A stretch of DNA of 64,000 nt, taken from positions 1 to 64,000 of the forward strand of contig JAJZPC010000004.1 of assembly GCA_021811385.1 (NCBI GenBank), in the 5' to 3' direction. Numbering within the stretch: position 1 is the first letter of the stretch; each line of letters begins with the position of its first letter. The translations under genes and the position numbers were made by a program. Of the stretch, positions 2,427 through 43,088 are shown in pieces. The DNA is from Deltaproteobacteria bacterium (GTDB lineage Bacteria > Desulfobacterota > Desulfobulbia > Desulfobulbales > Desulfurivibrionaceae). The notes under the pieces are model-generated. The model did not search any database and had not been told where the DNA came from. It was given only the letters and a program-made list of their open reading frames with translations.

Positions 2427-4988
2427 ATGCTGGATGCCATGAGCTCTCTTTTTGACCGCCTGATCTCCCTGTTCCGCGGCACGCCAAGGCTTGCGCCCGC
2501 CGAGCTGCAGGCCGCCTTCCGCAGCCATTACAAGGATTTTCGCGCGCTGCTCACCGCCAACAACAACGCCCTGGAGCTGATGGCCGAGATGGAACAGGCT
2601 CTCGGTGCGGGCCAGCCCTTTGGCATGGCCTTTATCCGGGGCAACTGCACTGCGCTTTCCGTCAATATCTACAAGATGATCCACCACCTGACCCGGCTGG
2701 CCGACGGCCGGTATGGTGAGCTGGACCAGCCCTTCCGGGCCATCACCAAACAGCTCGAACAGGTCATCGCCAGCAAACACGTCAACACTGAGGGAGCAAA
2801 CATCCTCCCCATGGCCGAGGTGGATGCCTCTACCGTGGATCAGGTGGGGGAAAAGATGGCCAATCTGGGCGAGGCCAGAAACCGGATCGGCCTGAGAACC
2901 CCGGACGGCTTTGTCATCACGGCAACGGCGGCCCGGCAGTTCATCGAGGCCAACGATTTGCAGGTTGAGATCAATCGCCGTCTTAAAGGGTTGGATATCG
3001 ACAATCTGGAAGAGCTCTACACGGTCAGCGCAGGCATCCAAGGCTTGATCAGCAATGCACCCCTGCCGGCGGAACTGGAAGAGGCGATTCTGGGCCACCA
3101 CCAGCAGCTCGACACCGCCCCGGAGGCGGAACTGCTGGTCGCCCTGCGCTCAAGCGCTCTGGGCGAGGACAGCAGTAACATCTCCTTTGCCGGGCAGTAC
3201 CGGACCCAGCTCAATGTCAGCCGCGAATTTGTCACCCAGGCCTACAAAGAGATCGTGGCAGGCAAGTACAAAAGCCAGGCCATTGTCTACCGCCAGCAGC
3301 GGGGCTTTCGCCACCAGGACGTACACATGTGCGTCGGCTGCCTGCGCATGGTGGACGCCGCCATCAGCGGGGTAATGTATTCCCGCGCCCCGGATGATCC
3401 GCGCAGCCCCTTTGTCATCATCCAGGCGGCACCCGGCCTTGCCAGCACCGTGGTGGACGGCAGCGCGGCCAGCGAGCAGCTCCGGGTCAGCCGGACTGCG
3501 CCCTACCCAATTGTGCACAGAGCATCCGCCACGGAGCAAAGCCAGACCCTCACCGAACCCCAGGCCGCCGAACTGGCAACAGTCGGGGTGCGGCTGGAAG
3601 AACATTTCGGCACTCCCCAGGATATCGAATGGTCCATAGACCGCGCAGGCCTGCTCTATATTTTGCAATCCCGGCCCCTTGGCCACTCCGTTTCGGAAGA
3701 GGTGCGGGAATCCAGCAAACACAGCGCCACACCAAATGATCTGCCCGCCCCGGTTTTGAGCGGAGGGGTGTGCGCCAGCCAGGGCGTCGGCTACGGCCCG
3801 GTGTTCACCGTGCGCTCCAGCCTTGATCTGCTACGCTTTCCCAAGGGCGCGGTGCTGGTCATCGAGACGCCCTACCCGGACTGGGCCAGCCTCCTCAACC
3901 GGGCCGTGGCCGTGGTCAGCGAAACCGGCCAAATGGCCGCCCACCTTGCCACCGTGGCCCGCGAGTTCGGGATACCTGCAATCTTCGGCATGCATCAGGC
4001 CCTGGCAACCCTTGAAAACAACAGCCTGGTCACGGTGGACGCCACCGCAGGCAAAGTCTATGAAGGGAGGGTGGAACCCCTGCTGGCCCTGGCCCCGCCC
4101 AAACCCAATCTCATGGCCGGAAGCCCGGTGTACAAGATCCTCACCGAGGCCCTGGTCCACATCACCCCGCTCAACCTGACCGATCCGGCCTCTCCTTTTT
4201 TCCGGCCCGAGGGTTGCCAGACCCTGCATGATCTCACCCGCTTCTGCCACGAAAAGGCGGTGGTGGAGATGTTCACCTTTGGCGAACGCTACGGTTTTGA
4301 CGACAAGGCGGCCAAGCAGCTGGTGGTGGAAAATTCACCGGCCCAATGGTGGGTGATTGACCTCGACGACGGCTTCACCCCGGATTTCGACCCGGAAAGC
4401 CGCTATGTGCATCTCGGCCACATCACCTCCGTACCCATGCAGGCCATCTGGCAGGGCATGATGGCCTTTCCCTGGGCAGGGCCGCCGCCGGTCAGCCTGG
4501 GGGGGCTCGGCTCCATCATCTTCCAGTCCACGAGAAACCCAAGCCTCGACCCAGGGGTGCGCTCGGCCATGGCCGCCAAAAACTACTTTCTCATCTCCAA
4601 GAACTTCTGCAACCTCAGTGTCCGGCTCGGCTATCATTTTGCCCTGGTGGAGGCCAACCTGGGGGAGTTTCTCACGGAAAACTATGTGAGCTTCCAGTTC
4701 AAGGGAGGGGCTGCGGATGAAAACCGCCGGTTGCTGCGCATCCGGCTGATCAGCGAAATCTTGAACGAATTCGGGTTCCGGGTGGAGCAGAAGGTGGACG
4801 CCATGACCGCCCGGATCGAGAAGAAACCCGGACCCTCTCTGCTGGAACGGTTGCGGGTTCTCGGCTACCTGCTGATCCACACCCGCCAGATCGACATGGT
4901 CATGGCTGACCAAGGCATGGCCGCAAACTACCGCGAAAAAATCATGGCCGACCTGCACACCCTGATGGATATCCCAACGGAGGGATGA
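2427..4988 (+). CDS. PEP/pyruvate-binding domain protein (PpsA/PPDK N-terminal plus phosphohistidine swivelling domain, atypical C-terminus)
   Basis: ALRSSALGEDSSNISFAGQYRTQLNV (PPDK_N-like) and VVSETGQMAAHLATVAREFGIPAIFG (PEP-utilizer His domain). Confidence 0.8.
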   Translation: MLDAMSSLFDRLISLFRGTPRLAPAELQAAFRSHYKDFRALLTANNNALELMAEMEQALGAGQPFGMAFIRGNCTALSVNIYKMIHHLTRLADGRYGELDQPFRAITKQLEQVIASKHVNTEGANILPMAEVDASTVDQVGEKMANLGEARNRIGLRTPDGFVITATAARQFIEANDLQVEINRRLKGLDIDNLEELYTVSAGIQGLISNAPLPAELEEAILGHHQQLDTAPEAELLVALRSSALGEDSSNISFAGQYRTQLNVSREFVTQAYKEIVAGKYKSQAIVYRQQRGFRHQDVHMCVGCLRMVDAAISGVMYSRAPDDPRSPFVIIQAAPGLASTVVDGSAASEQLRVSRTAPYPIVHRASATEQSQTLTEPQAAELATVGVRLEEHFGTPQDIEWSIDRAGLLYILQSRPLGHSVSEEVRESSKHSATPNDLPAPVLSGGVCASQGVGYGPVFTVRSSLDLLRFPKGAVLVIETPYPDWASLLNRAVAVVSETGQMAAHLATVAREFGIPAIFGMHQALATLENNSLVTVDATAGKVYEGRVEPLLALAPPKPNLMAGSPVYKILTEALVHITPLNLTDPASPFFRPEGCQTLHDLTRFCHEKAVVEMFTFGERYGFDDKAAKQLVVENSPAQWWVIDLDDGFTPDFDPESRYVHLGHITSVPMQAIWQGMMAFPWAGPPPVSLGGLGSIIFQSTRNPSLDPGVRSAMAAKNYFLISKNFCNLSVRLGYHFALVEANLGEFLTENYVSFQFKGGAADENRRLLRIRLISEILNEFGFRVEQKVDAMTARIEKKPGPSLLERLRVLGYLLIHTRQIDMVMADQGMAANYREKIMADLHTLMDIPTEG

Positions 4989-4989
4989 C

Positions 4990-5376
4990 ATGACCCAACC
5001 GCTCAATATCCTGCTCATTGACGATGAAATCGATTTCGTGGAAACAACCGGCAAAAGGCTGATACGCAGGGGCTATTCGGCAAAAACCGCGCTCACCTGC
5101 GCCGAGGGGCTTGAGATCATCGCCTCGGGCTGGCCCGAGGTGGTGGTGCTGGATGTGATGCTCCCGGACCGCGACGGCATGGACTGCCTGCGGGAGATCA
5201 AGGGAAAATGGCCGACCCTGCCGGTCATCATGCTGACCGGCCACGCCTCCATGGAAACAGGGCTGCACGGCCTGGAATGCGGGGCCAGCGACTACTGCCT
5301 CAAACCCATCGACCTGGAAACCCTGGTGGAAAAGATCGCCATCGCCCATCGGGAGAGCCGGGCGCCTGGGGCATGA
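4990..5376 (+). CDS. single-domain response regulator
   Basis: LLIDDEIDF, VLDVMLPDRDG, MLTGHAS, CLKP motifs; no output domain. Confidence 0.9.
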   Translation: MTQPLNILLIDDEIDFVETTGKRLIRRGYSAKTALTCAEGLEIIASGWPEVVVLDVMLPDRDGMDCLREIKGKWPTLPVIMLTGHASMETGLHGLECGASDYCLKPIDLETLVEKIAIAHRESRAPGA

Positions 5377-5413
5377 AAAAAGCCATCCCGCCGCATGGCA
5401 GGATGGCTTTTTT
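5376..5413 (+). terminator. Rho-independent terminator
   Basis: AAAAAAGCCATCC-loop-GGATGGCTTTTTT immediately after the response regulator. Confidence 0.85.
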
Positions 5414-5420
5414 GTTTCAG

Positions 5421-5542
5421 GTTCCCCCTCCCTTGACGGGAGGGGGTCGGGGGGTGGGTGAAGTTGCCAGCGGCAGCAGTACGTTCCCCCTCACCCTAAC
5501 CCTCTCCCGCAGGTAAGCGAAGACTCCGAGGGGAGAGGGAAC
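5421..5542. repeat. intergenic G/C-rich palindromic repeat, copy 1
   Basis: CCCCCTCCCTTGACGGGAGGGGGTCGGGGGGTGGGTGAAGTTGC, nearly repeated at 39007-39113. Confidence 0.7.
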
Positions 5543-5592
5543 TTCTTTGCATCCGGCAATTTTCTAACCGGACAATACTGACTTTTTCTTAA

Positions 5593-6036
5593 TCAATGCC
5601 CGCCGCCGGAAAGCACGCCGCTGGCCGCCAGGGTCAGAATAACCGCCTCGGCCAGGGCCATGATCGCCATGGCCCTGTCCTTCCGGGCGAAGAGCCCCGG
5701 GGTGATGACCAGGTAACAGACAATGGTGATCCCGGAGAGGATGGCCACCGGCAGGAAGTTGAGAAAATCGCCATAGCCGAGGAGCTTCATCCAGGACCAG
5801 CCGACAGGCAGGGTTTCCCAGTGCAGAAAATTGGTGTTGATGGCCACCAGATAGTCGTGCACCGGCTGGCTCCAGTAGATGGAGATCTCGCTCACCGGCA
5901 CGATTGAGGGCATGATGCCCAAAACATACAGGGCAAAGGTGATTACCATGAGGGCCAGGCCTGCGAACATCCCTTTTTCAAGAATATCGGCGTACAGGAC
6001 CTGTTCCTCGGTCGCTTGGGTATTATGGTGTGACAT
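5593..6036 (-). CDS. small membrane protein next to TauE (possibly DUF1634-like)
   Basis: 147 aa with several TM helices; directly upstream of a TauE-family gene on the same strand. Confidence 0.7.
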   Translation of the reverse strand: MSHHNTQATEEQVLYADILEKGMFAGLALMVITFALYVLGIMPSIVPVSEISIYWSQPVHDYLVAINTNFLHWETLPVGWSWMKLLGYGDFLNFLPVAILSGITIVCYLVITPGLFARKDRAMAIMALAEAVILTLAASGVLSGGGH

Positions 6037-39703: not shown

Positions 39704-40123
39704 ATGCTCCTCGACGATCTCCCGGCCATCCACACGCTGCTGACCACGGCCAAAACCATCGCAGTGGTCGGCCTCTCCCCCAAGGAATCCCGGCCCAGCA
39801 ACATGGTGGCCCGCTACCTGATCGAGGCGGGCTACACCGTGATCCCGGTCAATCCCGGCCAGGAGAAAATCCTCGGCCTACCCTGCTACCCCAACCTCGC
39901 CGCAATCCCCACCCCGGTGGATATTGTGGATATCTTCCGCCGCTCCGAGGATGTGCCCCCCATCGTGGACGAGGCCATTGCCATCGGCGCCAAGGCAATC
40001 TGGATGCAGGAAGGGGTGATCCACGCCGAGGCGGCTCGCACCGCGAAGGCGGCAGGGTTGATGGTGGTGATGGACCGCTGCATCAAGACAATGCACCATG
40101 ATCTGGGCCACGAACAAGGATGA
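39704..40123 (+). CDS. CoA-binding protein (YccU-like)
   Basis: IAVVGLSPKESRPSNMVARYLIEAGYTVIPVNPG; MQEGV; MDRCIK. Confidence 0.92.
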   Translation: MLLDDLPAIHTLLTTAKTIAVVGLSPKESRPSNMVARYLIEAGYTVIPVNPGQEKILGLPCYPNLAAIPTPVDIVDIFRRSEDVPPIVDEAIAIGAKAIWMQEGVIHAEAARTAKAAGLMVVMDRCIKTMHHDLGHEQG

Positions 40124-40148
40124 GCATAGCGACTGGCAGGAAAACCGC

Positions 40149-40187
40149 TTGACAAAGAAATCTCCAAGGCGTACGATTTGACGTACG
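40149..40187 (+). promoter_or_regulatory. yefM-yoeB promoter/operator: TTGACA-N17-TACGAT with two CGTACG palindromes 12 bp apart
   Basis: CGTACG at 40170-40175 and 40182-40187, overlapping the -10. Confidence 0.65.
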
Positions 40188-40202
40188 GAATGAGGACTGA
40201 CA

Positions 40203-40445
40203 ATGACAACACTTTCAGCAACAGAAGCACGAAAATGCCTGTATAGCCTTGTTGATGACGTAGCCGAATCCCATGATCCAATTCAGATTGTGGGCAAGCG
40301 GCATTCCGCGTTTCTGGTCTCGGAAGATGATTGGCGGGCGATCCAGGAAACCTTGTACCTCACCGCAGTCCCTGGCATGCGCGAATCGATTCAGGACGGA
40401 CTCAAGAGCCCCATTGAAGAGTGCAGCGAGACGCTTGAATGGTGA
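40203..40445 (+). CDS. type II antitoxin, Phd/YefM family
   Basis: MTTLSATEARKCLYSLVDDVAESHDPIQIVGKRHSAFLVSEDDWRAIQETLYL. Confidence 0.9.
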   Translation: MTTLSATEARKCLYSLVDDVAESHDPIQIVGKRHSAFLVSEDDWRAIQETLYLTAVPGMRESIQDGLKSPIEECSETLEW

Positions 40446-40705
40446 GCTGGCGTCTGGTTTTTACCAAACAGGCGCAGAAGGATGCGAAAAAAATCGCGCA
40501 ATCCGGACTGAAACCGCAAGCCGAGCGACTGCTCGAACTCCTCACAGAAAATCCGTACAAAAATCCACCGCCATACGAAAAACTCATCGGCGATCTTTCC
40601 GGTGCATATTCCCGAAGGATCAACATCCAGCACCGGCTTGTGTACCAAGTCATGGATGAGACCCAGACCGTCAAAGTCATCCGGATGTGGACCCACTATG
40701 AATAA
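40439..40705 (+). CDS. Txe/YoeB family toxin
   Basis: WRLVFTKQAQKDAKKIA ... LSGAYSRRINIQHRLVYQV. Confidence 0.92.
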   Translation: MVSWRLVFTKQAQKDAKKIAQSGLKPQAERLLELLTENPYKNPPPYEKLIGDLSGAYSRRINIQHRLVYQVMDETQTVKVIRMWTHYE

Positions 40706-40730
40706 CTGACGTGTACGCCGCCCCGCCCCC

Positions 40731-40762
40731 TTGACAGTGATACTACAAGTCAGTATCATACT
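40731..40762 (+). promoter_or_regulatory. hicAB promoter TTGACA-N17-TATCAT with overlapping inverted repeats
   Basis: GATACT-N7-AGTATC (40739-40757) and AGTATCATACT (40752-40762). Confidence 0.65.
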
Positions 40763-40770
40763 GATAAAAT

Positions 40771-41025
40771 ATGAACAGCACGCACCGCAAGACACTTGCC
40801 GCCATCTTTTCCCAGCCCCCCCCTGCAGCCATTGAATGGCGGAGAATTGAGGCGCTATTGATGGCACTGGGTTCAGTGCTCATCGAAGGCGATGGATCAC
40901 GGGTCTCTTTTATCCTCAACAACGAAAAGGCCGACTTTCACCGGCCTCATCCGGGCAAGGACGCCAAACGGTACCAAGTGCGAAACGCCAAGGATTTTCT
41001 AACCAGAGCAGGAGTCTTCCCATGA
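40771..41025 (+). CDS. hicA: HicA family toxin
   Basis: RRIEALLMALGSVLIEGDGSRVSFILNNEKADFHRPHPGKDAKRYQV. Confidence 0.88.
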   Translation: MNSTHRKTLAAIFSQPPPAAIEWRRIEALLMALGSVLIEGDGSRVSFILNNEKADFHRPHPGKDAKRYQVRNAKDFLTRAGVFP

Positions 41026-41396
41026 ACACTCTCAGTTACAAGGGCTACACAGCCAAAATCGAATTCGACCCCGACGACAACCTTCTGTTTGGCAATATCG
41101 TCGGCATCCGTGACACGGTTGGCTTTCATGGCGAGACGGTGGCCGAACTCAAAGACGCCTTCCGCGAGGCGGTTGATTTCTACCTTGAAAGTTGCGAGAA
41201 ATCCAGACGTGTTCCCGACAAGCCATTTTCCGGTAAATTTGTCGTCCGGGTGGAGTCCTCGCTGCACGGCGAGATTGTCGCCGCCGCCGTCAATGCAGGG
41301 AAAAGCGTCAACAAGTGGGTAGCCGACACCCTTGCCGCAGTTGTGCATGCCCACCCGCAGGCCGGGCAAGCCGGAGAAACGGGAAAGCGTTCCTGA
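41022..41396 (+). CDS. hicB: HicB family antitoxin
   Basis: MNTLSYKGYTAKIEFDPDDNLLFGNIVGIRDTVGFHGETVAELKDAF; C-terminal RHH-like. Confidence 0.92.
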   Translation: MNTLSYKGYTAKIEFDPDDNLLFGNIVGIRDTVGFHGETVAELKDAFREAVDFYLESCEKSRRVPDKPFSGKFVVRVESSLHGEIVAAAVNAGKSVNKWVADTLAAVVHAHPQAGQAGETGKRS

Positions 41397-41448
41397 TTTT
41401 CCGAGCTAGCTCGATAATAATATTGTTAGCCATCAAGGAAATTGAATA

Positions 41449-42066
41449 ATGTCACCATGGTTCAGTTTTACAATTGCTTGCCTCGCTCTGCTCATTTCAG
41501 GAGTGACTGCATGGCTTACATTTTTCCGTAAAGGAAAACTAGTGATGACTCAACCAACCGTTATATTCTTTGGCCCTGATGGTTCAAAGTTCGATAGCAG
41601 TAAAAACAAGATATATCTTAGAACCCTACTTTACAGTACAGCTAAGCGTGGCCAAGTTCTGGAAAGTCTACATATTTCAATTCACCGCAATGAGACCAAA
41701 CAAAATTTCAATATTTGGGTTTACGGCGAGAAAGGGAACCTGAAAAGAGGTAGCGGATTATTTATACCGCAAGAAGGTGTTACGTTTGACCATCACTTTT
41801 TACTTCCTGAAGATGGCGCAAATTTTGCCTTCAACTCAGGTTCATACAAATTAGCAGTTATCGCAAAATTAGTGGGCAGCTCCGCTTGCCATGAATTAAG
41901 TTCTATAAACCTTACAATTAATGACGCACAAGCAGCTCAGTTGGCTGAGTCAAATACGGGCATTTATTTTGATTGGGGGCCTGATCAACAAAGCTACCAC
42001 TCTCATATTGATACAAGACCAGAAAAAGAACCAGATATTGGGCAGTTACTAGAAATCATGGCATAA
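41449..42066 (+). CDS. hypothetical TM-anchored protein (cassette-like ORF)
   Basis: N-terminal TM helix; stop codon lies in the left end of an attC-like site. Confidence 0.7.
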   Translation: MSPWFSFTIACLALLISGVTAWLTFFRKGKLVMTQPTVIFFGPDGSKFDSSKNKIYLRTLLYSTAKRGQVLESLHISIHRNETKQNFNIWVYGEKGNLKRGSGLFIPQEGVTFDHHFLLPEDGANFAFNSGSYKLAVIAKLVGSSACHELSSINLTINDAQAAQLAESNTGIYFDWGPDQQSYHSHIDTRPEKEPDIGQLLEIMA

Positions 42067-42117
42067 CGCCAAAATCCAGCCGACGCAAAAAATGCGCGGC
42101 TGATTTTGGCGTTATGC
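42062..42117 (+). other. integron attC-like recombination site
   Basis: CATAACGCCAAAATC(C)AGCCG(A)CGCA-AAAAA-TGCGCGGCTGATTTTGGCGTTATG: near-perfect palindrome with two extrahelical bases and TAAC/GTTA ends. Confidence 0.75.
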
Positions 42118-42135
42118 GCTGAATACGGAGTAGTG

Positions 42136-42771
42136 ATGGAACATTTCGTCAGTCCACGTTACGACCACTCCAAACTAGAGAATCCGAGTTTTACAGACCT
42201 TATCGATGTGTTCGAAGATTCCTGGCAGAAATACGTATTCTGGCCGTCCAAAATGCTACTGGATCATGGCGGTGACGTCGCCGCTATGACTTTGGTGACT
42301 TCGTACTTCGAAGCTATCGCCATCTATATGACCGGAGAAAATAGCGAGGGAAAATCAAAACCATTCTTCGTGAACGGTTTTTCGCAATGCTTTGCCGCGA
42401 GCACGGAAGGTATCGAGCTCGCGGCAAAGGAGATTTACAAGCACATCCGTTGCGGCCTTGCACATACTGGCATGCTCACGCCTCGGGTTAATTTTAGCCG
42501 AGAGGGAGCGCATGCATTCTATGTCACGTATCCAAAGAATCCGGATGGGTCACTTAACCTAAAGGTGCCGGCTGCGTCTATAGTGGTCAATCCGCAACGA
42601 ATGTACGAGGGCGTTCTGCGCCACTTTGCACAGTATATTAAGAATCTCCGTGGCGGAAGCCGACCAGATCTCGCATACACATTTCAGAAGGCCGTTTCTC
42701 TTCTCTGGGCACTGGAAGAGGGCGAAAACGTCATAGGTATGACGGAAGATGAATTCAAGGGGCGCGCATAA
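42136..42771 (+). CDS. hypothetical protein with HEPN-like RxxxxH motif (cassette-like ORF)
   Basis: Start just after GTTATGC core; AAKEIYKHIRCGLAHTGML. Confidence 0.65.
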   Translation: MEHFVSPRYDHSKLENPSFTDLIDVFEDSWQKYVFWPSKMLLDHGGDVAAMTLVTSYFEAIAIYMTGENSEGKSKPFFVNGFSQCFAASTEGIELAAKEIYKHIRCGLAHTGMLTPRVNFSREGAHAFYVTYPKNPDGSLNLKVPAASIVVNPQRMYEGVLRHFAQYIKNLRGGSRPDLAYTFQKAVSLLWALEEGENVIGMTEDEFKGRA

Positions 42772-42793
42772 CAACCGCGTGGGGTCACGCCTG

Positions 42794-43074
42794 ATGGGTA
42801 TCTCATCCGACATCAAGCCCATTTCCTTTCTCAAATCCCACGCCGCCGACATCTTAAAACAGATCAACGACACCATCGGCCCGTGGTCATCACGCAAAAC
42901 GGGGAACCGAGGGCAGTTCTTCAAGACCCCGAAAGCTATGACAACATGCGCAAGGCCATTGGCCTGCTGAAACTTCTCTCCCAAGGAGAGGAAGACTTCA
43001 AAAGAGGGGAAACAAAACCACAGGAGCGTGTTTTTAAAGACATCGAAAAGATGCTGGCACAGCACGGCAGATGA
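42794..43074 (+). pseudogene. frameshifted Phd/YefM-type antitoxin remnant
   Basis: MGISSDIKPISFLKSHAADILKQINDTIGP then, in another frame, VVITQNGEPRAVLQDPESYDNMRKAIGLLKLL; consistent with loss of 1 bp near 42890. Confidence 0.8.
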
Positions 43075-43088
43075 ATCCGCCACCGCAC

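Follow-up and report, generated by a model that had tools for sequence, protein, structure and literature searches.

Integrons are bacterial gene-capturing systems. Lone attCs and small CALINs (at least two attCs with no integrase nearby) are abundant and could arise by decay or by insertion outside integrons. The default CALIN threshold of IntegronFinder 2 is two attCs, and its authors state that single-site cases can be true (PMC9024848). Cassette insertion at attG sites has been described by Loot et al. 2024, as reported in PMC12901181 and PMC11641012. For the attC itself, integration of VCR2/1 drops significantly when the central spacer is paired, and spacer unpairing and asymmetry have been called essential for proper synapse assembly (PMC2727003). 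Template switching between imperfect inverted-repeat arms is a known type of mutation that homogenises the arms (PMC7202029, PMC8604942). A search of mostly open-access literature found no paper linking template switching to attC, which is weak evidence of novelty.

We analysed a stretch of 64,000 nucleotides (the window) from a Desulfobulbales bacterium (GCA_021811385.1, contig JAJZPC010000004.1), in which one complete attC lies between 2 small genes, ORF1 and ORF2. We consider it likely that the ORF1 and ORF2 cassettes, joined by an integrase, lie at a non-integron hotspot, and that the 5' arm of the attC was then overwritten by its 3' arm.

Results

The attC and its identity

42061-42117, + strand: attC of cassette 1 and junction of cassettes 1 and 2, recognised by covariance models R1 and R2 and by orthologous attCs
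42083, + strand: extrahelical base of L'', kept; A on the top strand and T on the bottom strand, both strands folded

The sequence at 42061-42117 is GCATAACGCCAAAATCCAGCCGACGCAAAAAATGCGCGGCTGATTTTGGCGTTATGC. The first-pass annotation had described an isolated attC-like palindrome here; its sequence and anatomy stand as described, and its start at 42062 is one base late. The core boxes R'' (GCATAAC, 42061-42067) and R' (GTTATGC, 42111-42117) pair at 7/7 positions, and each is one base off the consensus RYYYAAC...GTTRRRY. The L'' and L' boxes are present, and the 2 extra bases reported on one arm are found on the 5' arm when both strands are folded: C42076/C42077, either of which is able to bulge, and A42083. 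As that annotation also noticed, the ORF1 stop TAA lies within R'', the next ORF begins about 20 bp past the core (the ORF2 ATG at 42136 is 19 nt past R'), and the inner core resembles that of aadA-type attCs. The single-strand fold of 42050-42130 has -30.7 kcal/mol, compared with a shuffle mean of -10.6 (z -9.5).

Since a simple motif-plus-fold attC scanner gave leads but was noisy, we built 2 covariance models (CMs) without the window site. For CM R1 we used 18 attCs: those of eight clinical cassettes, sites on Desulforapulum and Thiolapillus plasmids, and sites of order-mates that carry an integrase. CM R2 comprises seven class-1 clinical cassettes only. CM R1 scored the site at 37.6 bits (E 6.3e-6 in the window) and ranked it first across the whole 2.6 Mb genome (E 2.6e-4); CM R2 gave 28.5 bits (E 5.2e-5). 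The CM R1 score is higher on the + strand (37.6) than on the - strand (21.6), the polarity expected if ORF1 is the cassette gene. Taking these scores together with the orthologous attCs after ORF1 homologues described below, the site is a genuine integron attC. A strong hairpin between two co-directional genes could also be a chance or functional palindrome, for example a terminator or regulatory hairpin, with no relation to integrons; we hold this to be extremely improbable in view of the independent CM scores, the conserved R and L boxes, the orthologous attCs after ORF1 homologues in distant bacteria, the exact cassette boundary and an Rfam scan of the window that gave no match.

The first-pass annotation had named a CM score below threshold and a genome with no other attC-like sites as the outcome that would speak against it; the CM scores are significant and further attC-like sites are present. 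Two more lone sites, of 26-27 bits, lie in the same genome on - strands (G000:C42:280-339, directly following a 149-aa ORF, and G000:C90:13975-14061). A pattern search of the whole genome for the attC core returned no second copy. The closest plasmid match to the core (90% over 49 nt) is at 3480-3546 of pLNU-11 from Citrobacter freundii (L102), where several small hypothetical genes stand in a row close to a group II intron reverse transcriptase, and its 5' R box is seemingly replaced.

The two cassettes

41425-41431, + strand: left boundary of cassette 1, GTTAGCC, with the crossover G^TT between 41425 and 41426
41449-42066, + strand: ORF1, 205 aa, the gene of cassette 1, with an N-terminal membrane helix and a predicted beta-sandwich domain
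42136-42771, + strand: ORF2, 211 aa, the gene of cassette 2, with a 43% homologue in the order-mate G102
42764-42779, + strand: R'' remnant of the truncated attC of cassette 2, GCGCATAAC followed by AACCGCG
42796-43074, + strand: frameshifted Phd/YefM-type antitoxin remnant (Pfam PF02604 on 42883-43074, just below cut-off)

Cassette 1 extends over 41426-42111, because the GTTAGCC start is conserved in homologues and a copy on a phage contig (L133) is homologous at the DNA level precisely from G^TTAGCC, 41425, onward. We found 19 homologues of ORF1, at 51-81% amino acid identity, in hosts such as Rheinheimera, Geotalea, Pseudoalteromonas, Sphaerotilus, Electronema, Blastocatellia and others; they range over Gamma-, Beta- and Deltaproteobacteria, Blastocatellia, Verrucomicrobium, Planctomycetota and further groups, a scatter across phyla that indicates lateral transfer. 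An attC stands directly 3' of five homologues (L157, L159, L160, L161 and L171) and precedes two (L161 and L164). The GTTAGCC start of the window recurs in L157, L159, L160, L161 and L164, so that four of the five with a 3' attC (all except L171) also start with G^TTAGCC. With G^TT at both ends (41425 and 42111), the 3' attC and the orthologous cassettes elsewhere, ORF1 is a widespread integron gene cassette. ORF1 occurs without attC on Yersinia ruckeri plasmids and in 2 order-mates, G126 and G121 (Ca. Electronema).

Neither ORF1 nor ORF2 matched Pfam, NCBIfam, PHROG or PADLOC. The structure model of ORF1 (pLDDT 79) had no PDB match at E<=0.001, and that of ORF2 is poor (pLDDT 39). ORF1 was not found in phage records, nor ORF2 in viral contigs. 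The viral contig L133 (IMGVR_UViG_3300013767_000191) carries the ORF1 cassette gene at 4907-5600 behind a degenerate attC-like site, and by this copy the cassette has probably entered phages too.

Cassette 2 starts at G^TTATGCGC (42111) and ends with GCGCATAAC (42764-42772). Between its start GTTATGCGC and this end there is a 9-nt perfect complement; a cassette start should match its own R'' in this way, which argues for ORF2 as a cassette. The ORF2 homologue in G102 has attC-like flanks. The 3' half of the cassette 2 attC is lost: the sequence gives way at about 42780 to an antitoxin leader, which aligns with that of a Phd-type antitoxin gene in G023; the gene is frameshifted in the window, and alignments with the relatives L153 and L154 run through the frameshift. 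ORF2 is therefore a second cassette, with a truncated attC of its own. The initial view of both ORFs as cassettes is thus borne out, by the attC-bearing ORF1 orthologues and by the start/end complement of ORF2.

The chromosomal locus

40203-41396, + strand: YefM/YoeB-type and HicAB toxin-antitoxin modules in the hotspot, assigned by Pfam, without attC

On its two sides the locus has stretches conserved in the genus: the CoA-binding gene (39704-40123) and, from about 43083, the yajC region. The interval between them (40124-43083) is a hypervariable spot in which, across the genus, toxin-antitoxin modules and cassettes gather. Copies of the window's modules with 93% DNA identity occupy the same spot in G013 (YefM/YoeB-type) and G010 (HicAB), and no attC was called among the modules at 40203-41396. 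In G014 as little as about 126 bp separates the matched flanks, and other genomes hold other genes. ORF1 and ORF2 are absent from all 16 genus-mates, and those with the locus have no attC or cassettes there. Cassette-free loci were found in G014, G010 and G011, in a spot too variable to define the exact insertion target.

No integron integrase was matched on the window's contig, which extends the first-pass finding of none in the window; a complete one turned up elsewhere in the genome, where that annotation had suggested looking. This only full integron integrase of the genome (TIGR02249, 368 bits) lies on another contig, C50, within a lambda-type prophage. At the locus, no intI and attI adjoin the attC as they would in a complete integron, and one complete attC plus a truncated R'' remnant falls below the default of two (PMC9024848), so the proposed label of candidate CALIN remnant needs correction. 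As for the origins suggested at first, a non-integron location agrees with the flanks conserved in the genus; the presence of an IntI, in a prophage on a different contig, leaves integrase loss as a supposition. As the genome is 75% complete, the assembly may have missed a local integron or integrase.

The cassettes might instead be the remnant of a larger resident integron, a classical CALIN that lost its integrase and its other cassettes by deletion in situ. An intI over cut-off in 34 of 58 relatives sampled would suit such a history, as would the truncated attC of cassette 2, which shows that deletion happened at the locus; we nevertheless think it improbable, because genus-mates with the locus have neither attC nor cassettes there, the spot otherwise holds unrelated toxin-antitoxin modules and other genes, and the flanks in G014 lie so close together.

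The prophage integrase (G000:C50:21900-29400; L010) is placed between the terminase large subunit and portal genes. Its integron has four attC-like sites on the + strand and cassette-like ORFs all four on the - strand, which puts them in line with the phage late operon and against the attC polarity. One cassette (L010:15761-16513, - strand) encodes a PAPS-reductase/SspD-like protein (PADLOC SspD E 2.8e-26; PHROG 424) that is possibly defence-related. Two IMG/VR contigs, L145 (IntI 84%, terminase 74%, portal 82%) and L146 (IntI 62%), carry the integrase in apparently the same place, and CM R1 called no attC on either.

The 5' arm of the attC

42061-42076, + strand: 5' arm GCATAACGCCAAAATC, apparently rewritten; exact reverse complement of 42102-42117, where orthologues have GGCTAACAAGAAAATG
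42102-42117, + strand: 3' arm GATTTTGGCGTTATGC, presumed to have served as template, with cassette 2 contributing the last six bases

The near-perfect palindrome was at first taken as normal for an attC. It is abnormal: the orthologous attC has the form GGCTAAC-AAG-AAAAT-G-CAGCCGACGC...GCGCGGCTG-ATTTT-GGC-GTTAGGC, in which pairing holds for the boxes and fails for the central spacer AAG/GGC. The spacer of the window site is paired (GCC with GGC) within a 16-bp unbroken stem, so that the unpaired spacer of an attC is lacking; since the orthologues have it, the site reads as a derived attC that has lost it, and its absence does not speak for a non-attC. Between GGCTAACAAGAAAATG of the orthologues and GGCATAACGCCAAAATC of the window there are 1 insertion and 4 substitutions, and all five match the 3' arm; a crude count puts this at about 0.3%. 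The symmetric run from the ends is 16 nt in the window. About 125 other attCs, drawn from the order and the ORF1 relatives (a few possibly counted twice), have at most 7, with one exception of 24. Spacer identity is 9/9, compared with a mean of 2.9/9 in 54 other sites, and the bottom strand folds at -28.7 kcal/mol, compared with about -15 for orthologous sites. On the 3' arm, the part GATTTTGGCGTT is the same as in L157 and L159, and the part TTATGCGC matches the R'' of cassette 2. Comparison with the orthologues thus shows that the 5' arm is in a derived state.

The order of events can be read from the cassette boundaries. The start of cassette 1, TTAGCC, pairs with the orthologous R'' GGCTAAC, whereas the present R'' GCATAAC matches the start of cassette 2, TTATGC. 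This match could be copied only when the cassettes were adjacent, which would place the arm change after their joining. The 5' arm therefore appears, from its sequence, to have been overwritten after joining with a mirror copy of the 3' arm, and a template-switch (quasipalindrome) correction is the simplest reading. Exchange by IntI was considered as the cause and rejected, because from the known cleavage points an R'/R'' crossover swaps flanks and leaves the spacer unrewritten. The closest attC-bearing orthologue is 81% identical in protein, the immediate ancestor of the attC being unseen, so several steps could be hidden.

Could this be an ordinary lone attC, left by a single cassette at a secondary site, with a symmetry due to drift or to an unusual native attC? 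Matches to attC occur in 63 of 116 genomes of the order, often singly and many of them so in near-closed genomes, and G007 and G010 have no integrase over cut-off; insertion at attG has been described (Loot 2024, via PMC12901181); and several examined attCs have a 7/7 R''/R' match, with an incomplete spacer match. A lone attC is ordinary in the order; the rewritten arm is not. The 5 differences from the orthologues, each of which brings the 5' arm closer to a mirror of the 3' arm (about 0.3%, crude count), the full spacer identity and an R'' that matches cassette 2, not the start of its own cassette, make this account unlikely.

Discussion

Based on these findings, we propose the following sequence of events for the joined cassettes and their overwritten arm. 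An integron integrase would have placed the ORF1 cassette beside the ORF2 cassette, and the pair would have come to the non-integron chromosomal hotspot of this bacterium, which shows neither a local integrase nor a recognised attI; the joining may have taken place within an integron elsewhere, with some other route bringing the cassettes to the locus. At the junction the attC of ORF1 is kept, and that of ORF2 lacks its 3' half. After joining, replicative template switching on the hairpin would have copied the 3' arm into the 5' arm over 16 nt. Such rewriting would remove the unpaired central spacer, alter R'' and the outer extrahelical base, and roughly double the predicted stability of the hairpin. 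It would also create an earlier stop for ORF1: the arm change brings in the TAA that ends ORF1 12 residues before the end of the L157 orthologue, whose frame continues through the attC.

Since spacer pairing lowers VCR2/1 integration (PMC2727003), the arm rewriting probably weakens the attC as a recombination site. The two extrahelical bases left may allow some activity to be kept. Weaker recombination of the rewritten attC would help to keep the cassettes in place.

More tentatively, attCs might recurrently lose their unpaired spacer through template-switch correction on their own hairpins and so lock in mobile cassettes; we find this conceivable and rather doubtful. If it does recur, the window site is a clear case. 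Arm-correction events would be datable by cassette boundaries, because R' belongs to the next cassette. A perfect palindrome with 24-nt arms in G010 (G010:C15:316318-316379; L246:2319-2380) scores as attC on both strands and lies between two small ORFs in a genome that is 99% complete and has no IntI over cut-off; it is a candidate second case. No orthologues of the gene neighbouring this palindrome were found in the 258 genomes searched. The history of the window locus is readable from its cassette boundaries, and the rewritten arm suggests a testable way to disable an attC that still scores as an attC. If this proves general, arm symmetry could separate live from dead attCs in genome surveys.

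Comparison with known systems

Like aadA/cmlA-type attCs (about 57-60 nt), the window site has R''/R' boxes, L''/L' boxes with AGCCG-A-CGC...GCGCGGCT, extrahelical bases on the 5' arm, a short terminal loop and a place at the 3' end of a gene; it differs from them in its fully paired central spacer and in arms that are exact mirrors over 16 nt. With CALINs as defined by IntegronFinder it shares an attC and cassettes away from any integrase, and its one complete and one truncated attC differ from the default of two (PMC9024848). With cassettes inserted at attG, as Loot et al. 2024 are reported to describe them (PMC12901181, PMC11641012), it shares a chromosomal G^TT and the absence of attI, and it differs in that no exact empty site was recovered at the locus.

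The nearest relatives are the ORF1-cassette attCs of Rheinheimera sp. A13L (L157), 2 gammaproteobacterial MAGs (L159 and L161) and Pseudoalteromonas sp. S16_S37 (L160). These cassettes share with the window the gene family, the start GTTAGCC and the inner core, and in L157 and L159 the 3' arm as well. Unlike the window site, they have R'' GGCTAAC, the spacer AAGAAAATG/AAAAAAATG, an unpaired central spacer, an ORF1 frame that passes through the attC and a hairpin of about -15, not about -29 kcal/mol. The difference between them and the window, a short multi-base change after which one arm mirrors the other, recalls quasipalindrome template-switch mutations, which have been described in other sequences (PMC7202029, PMC8604942).
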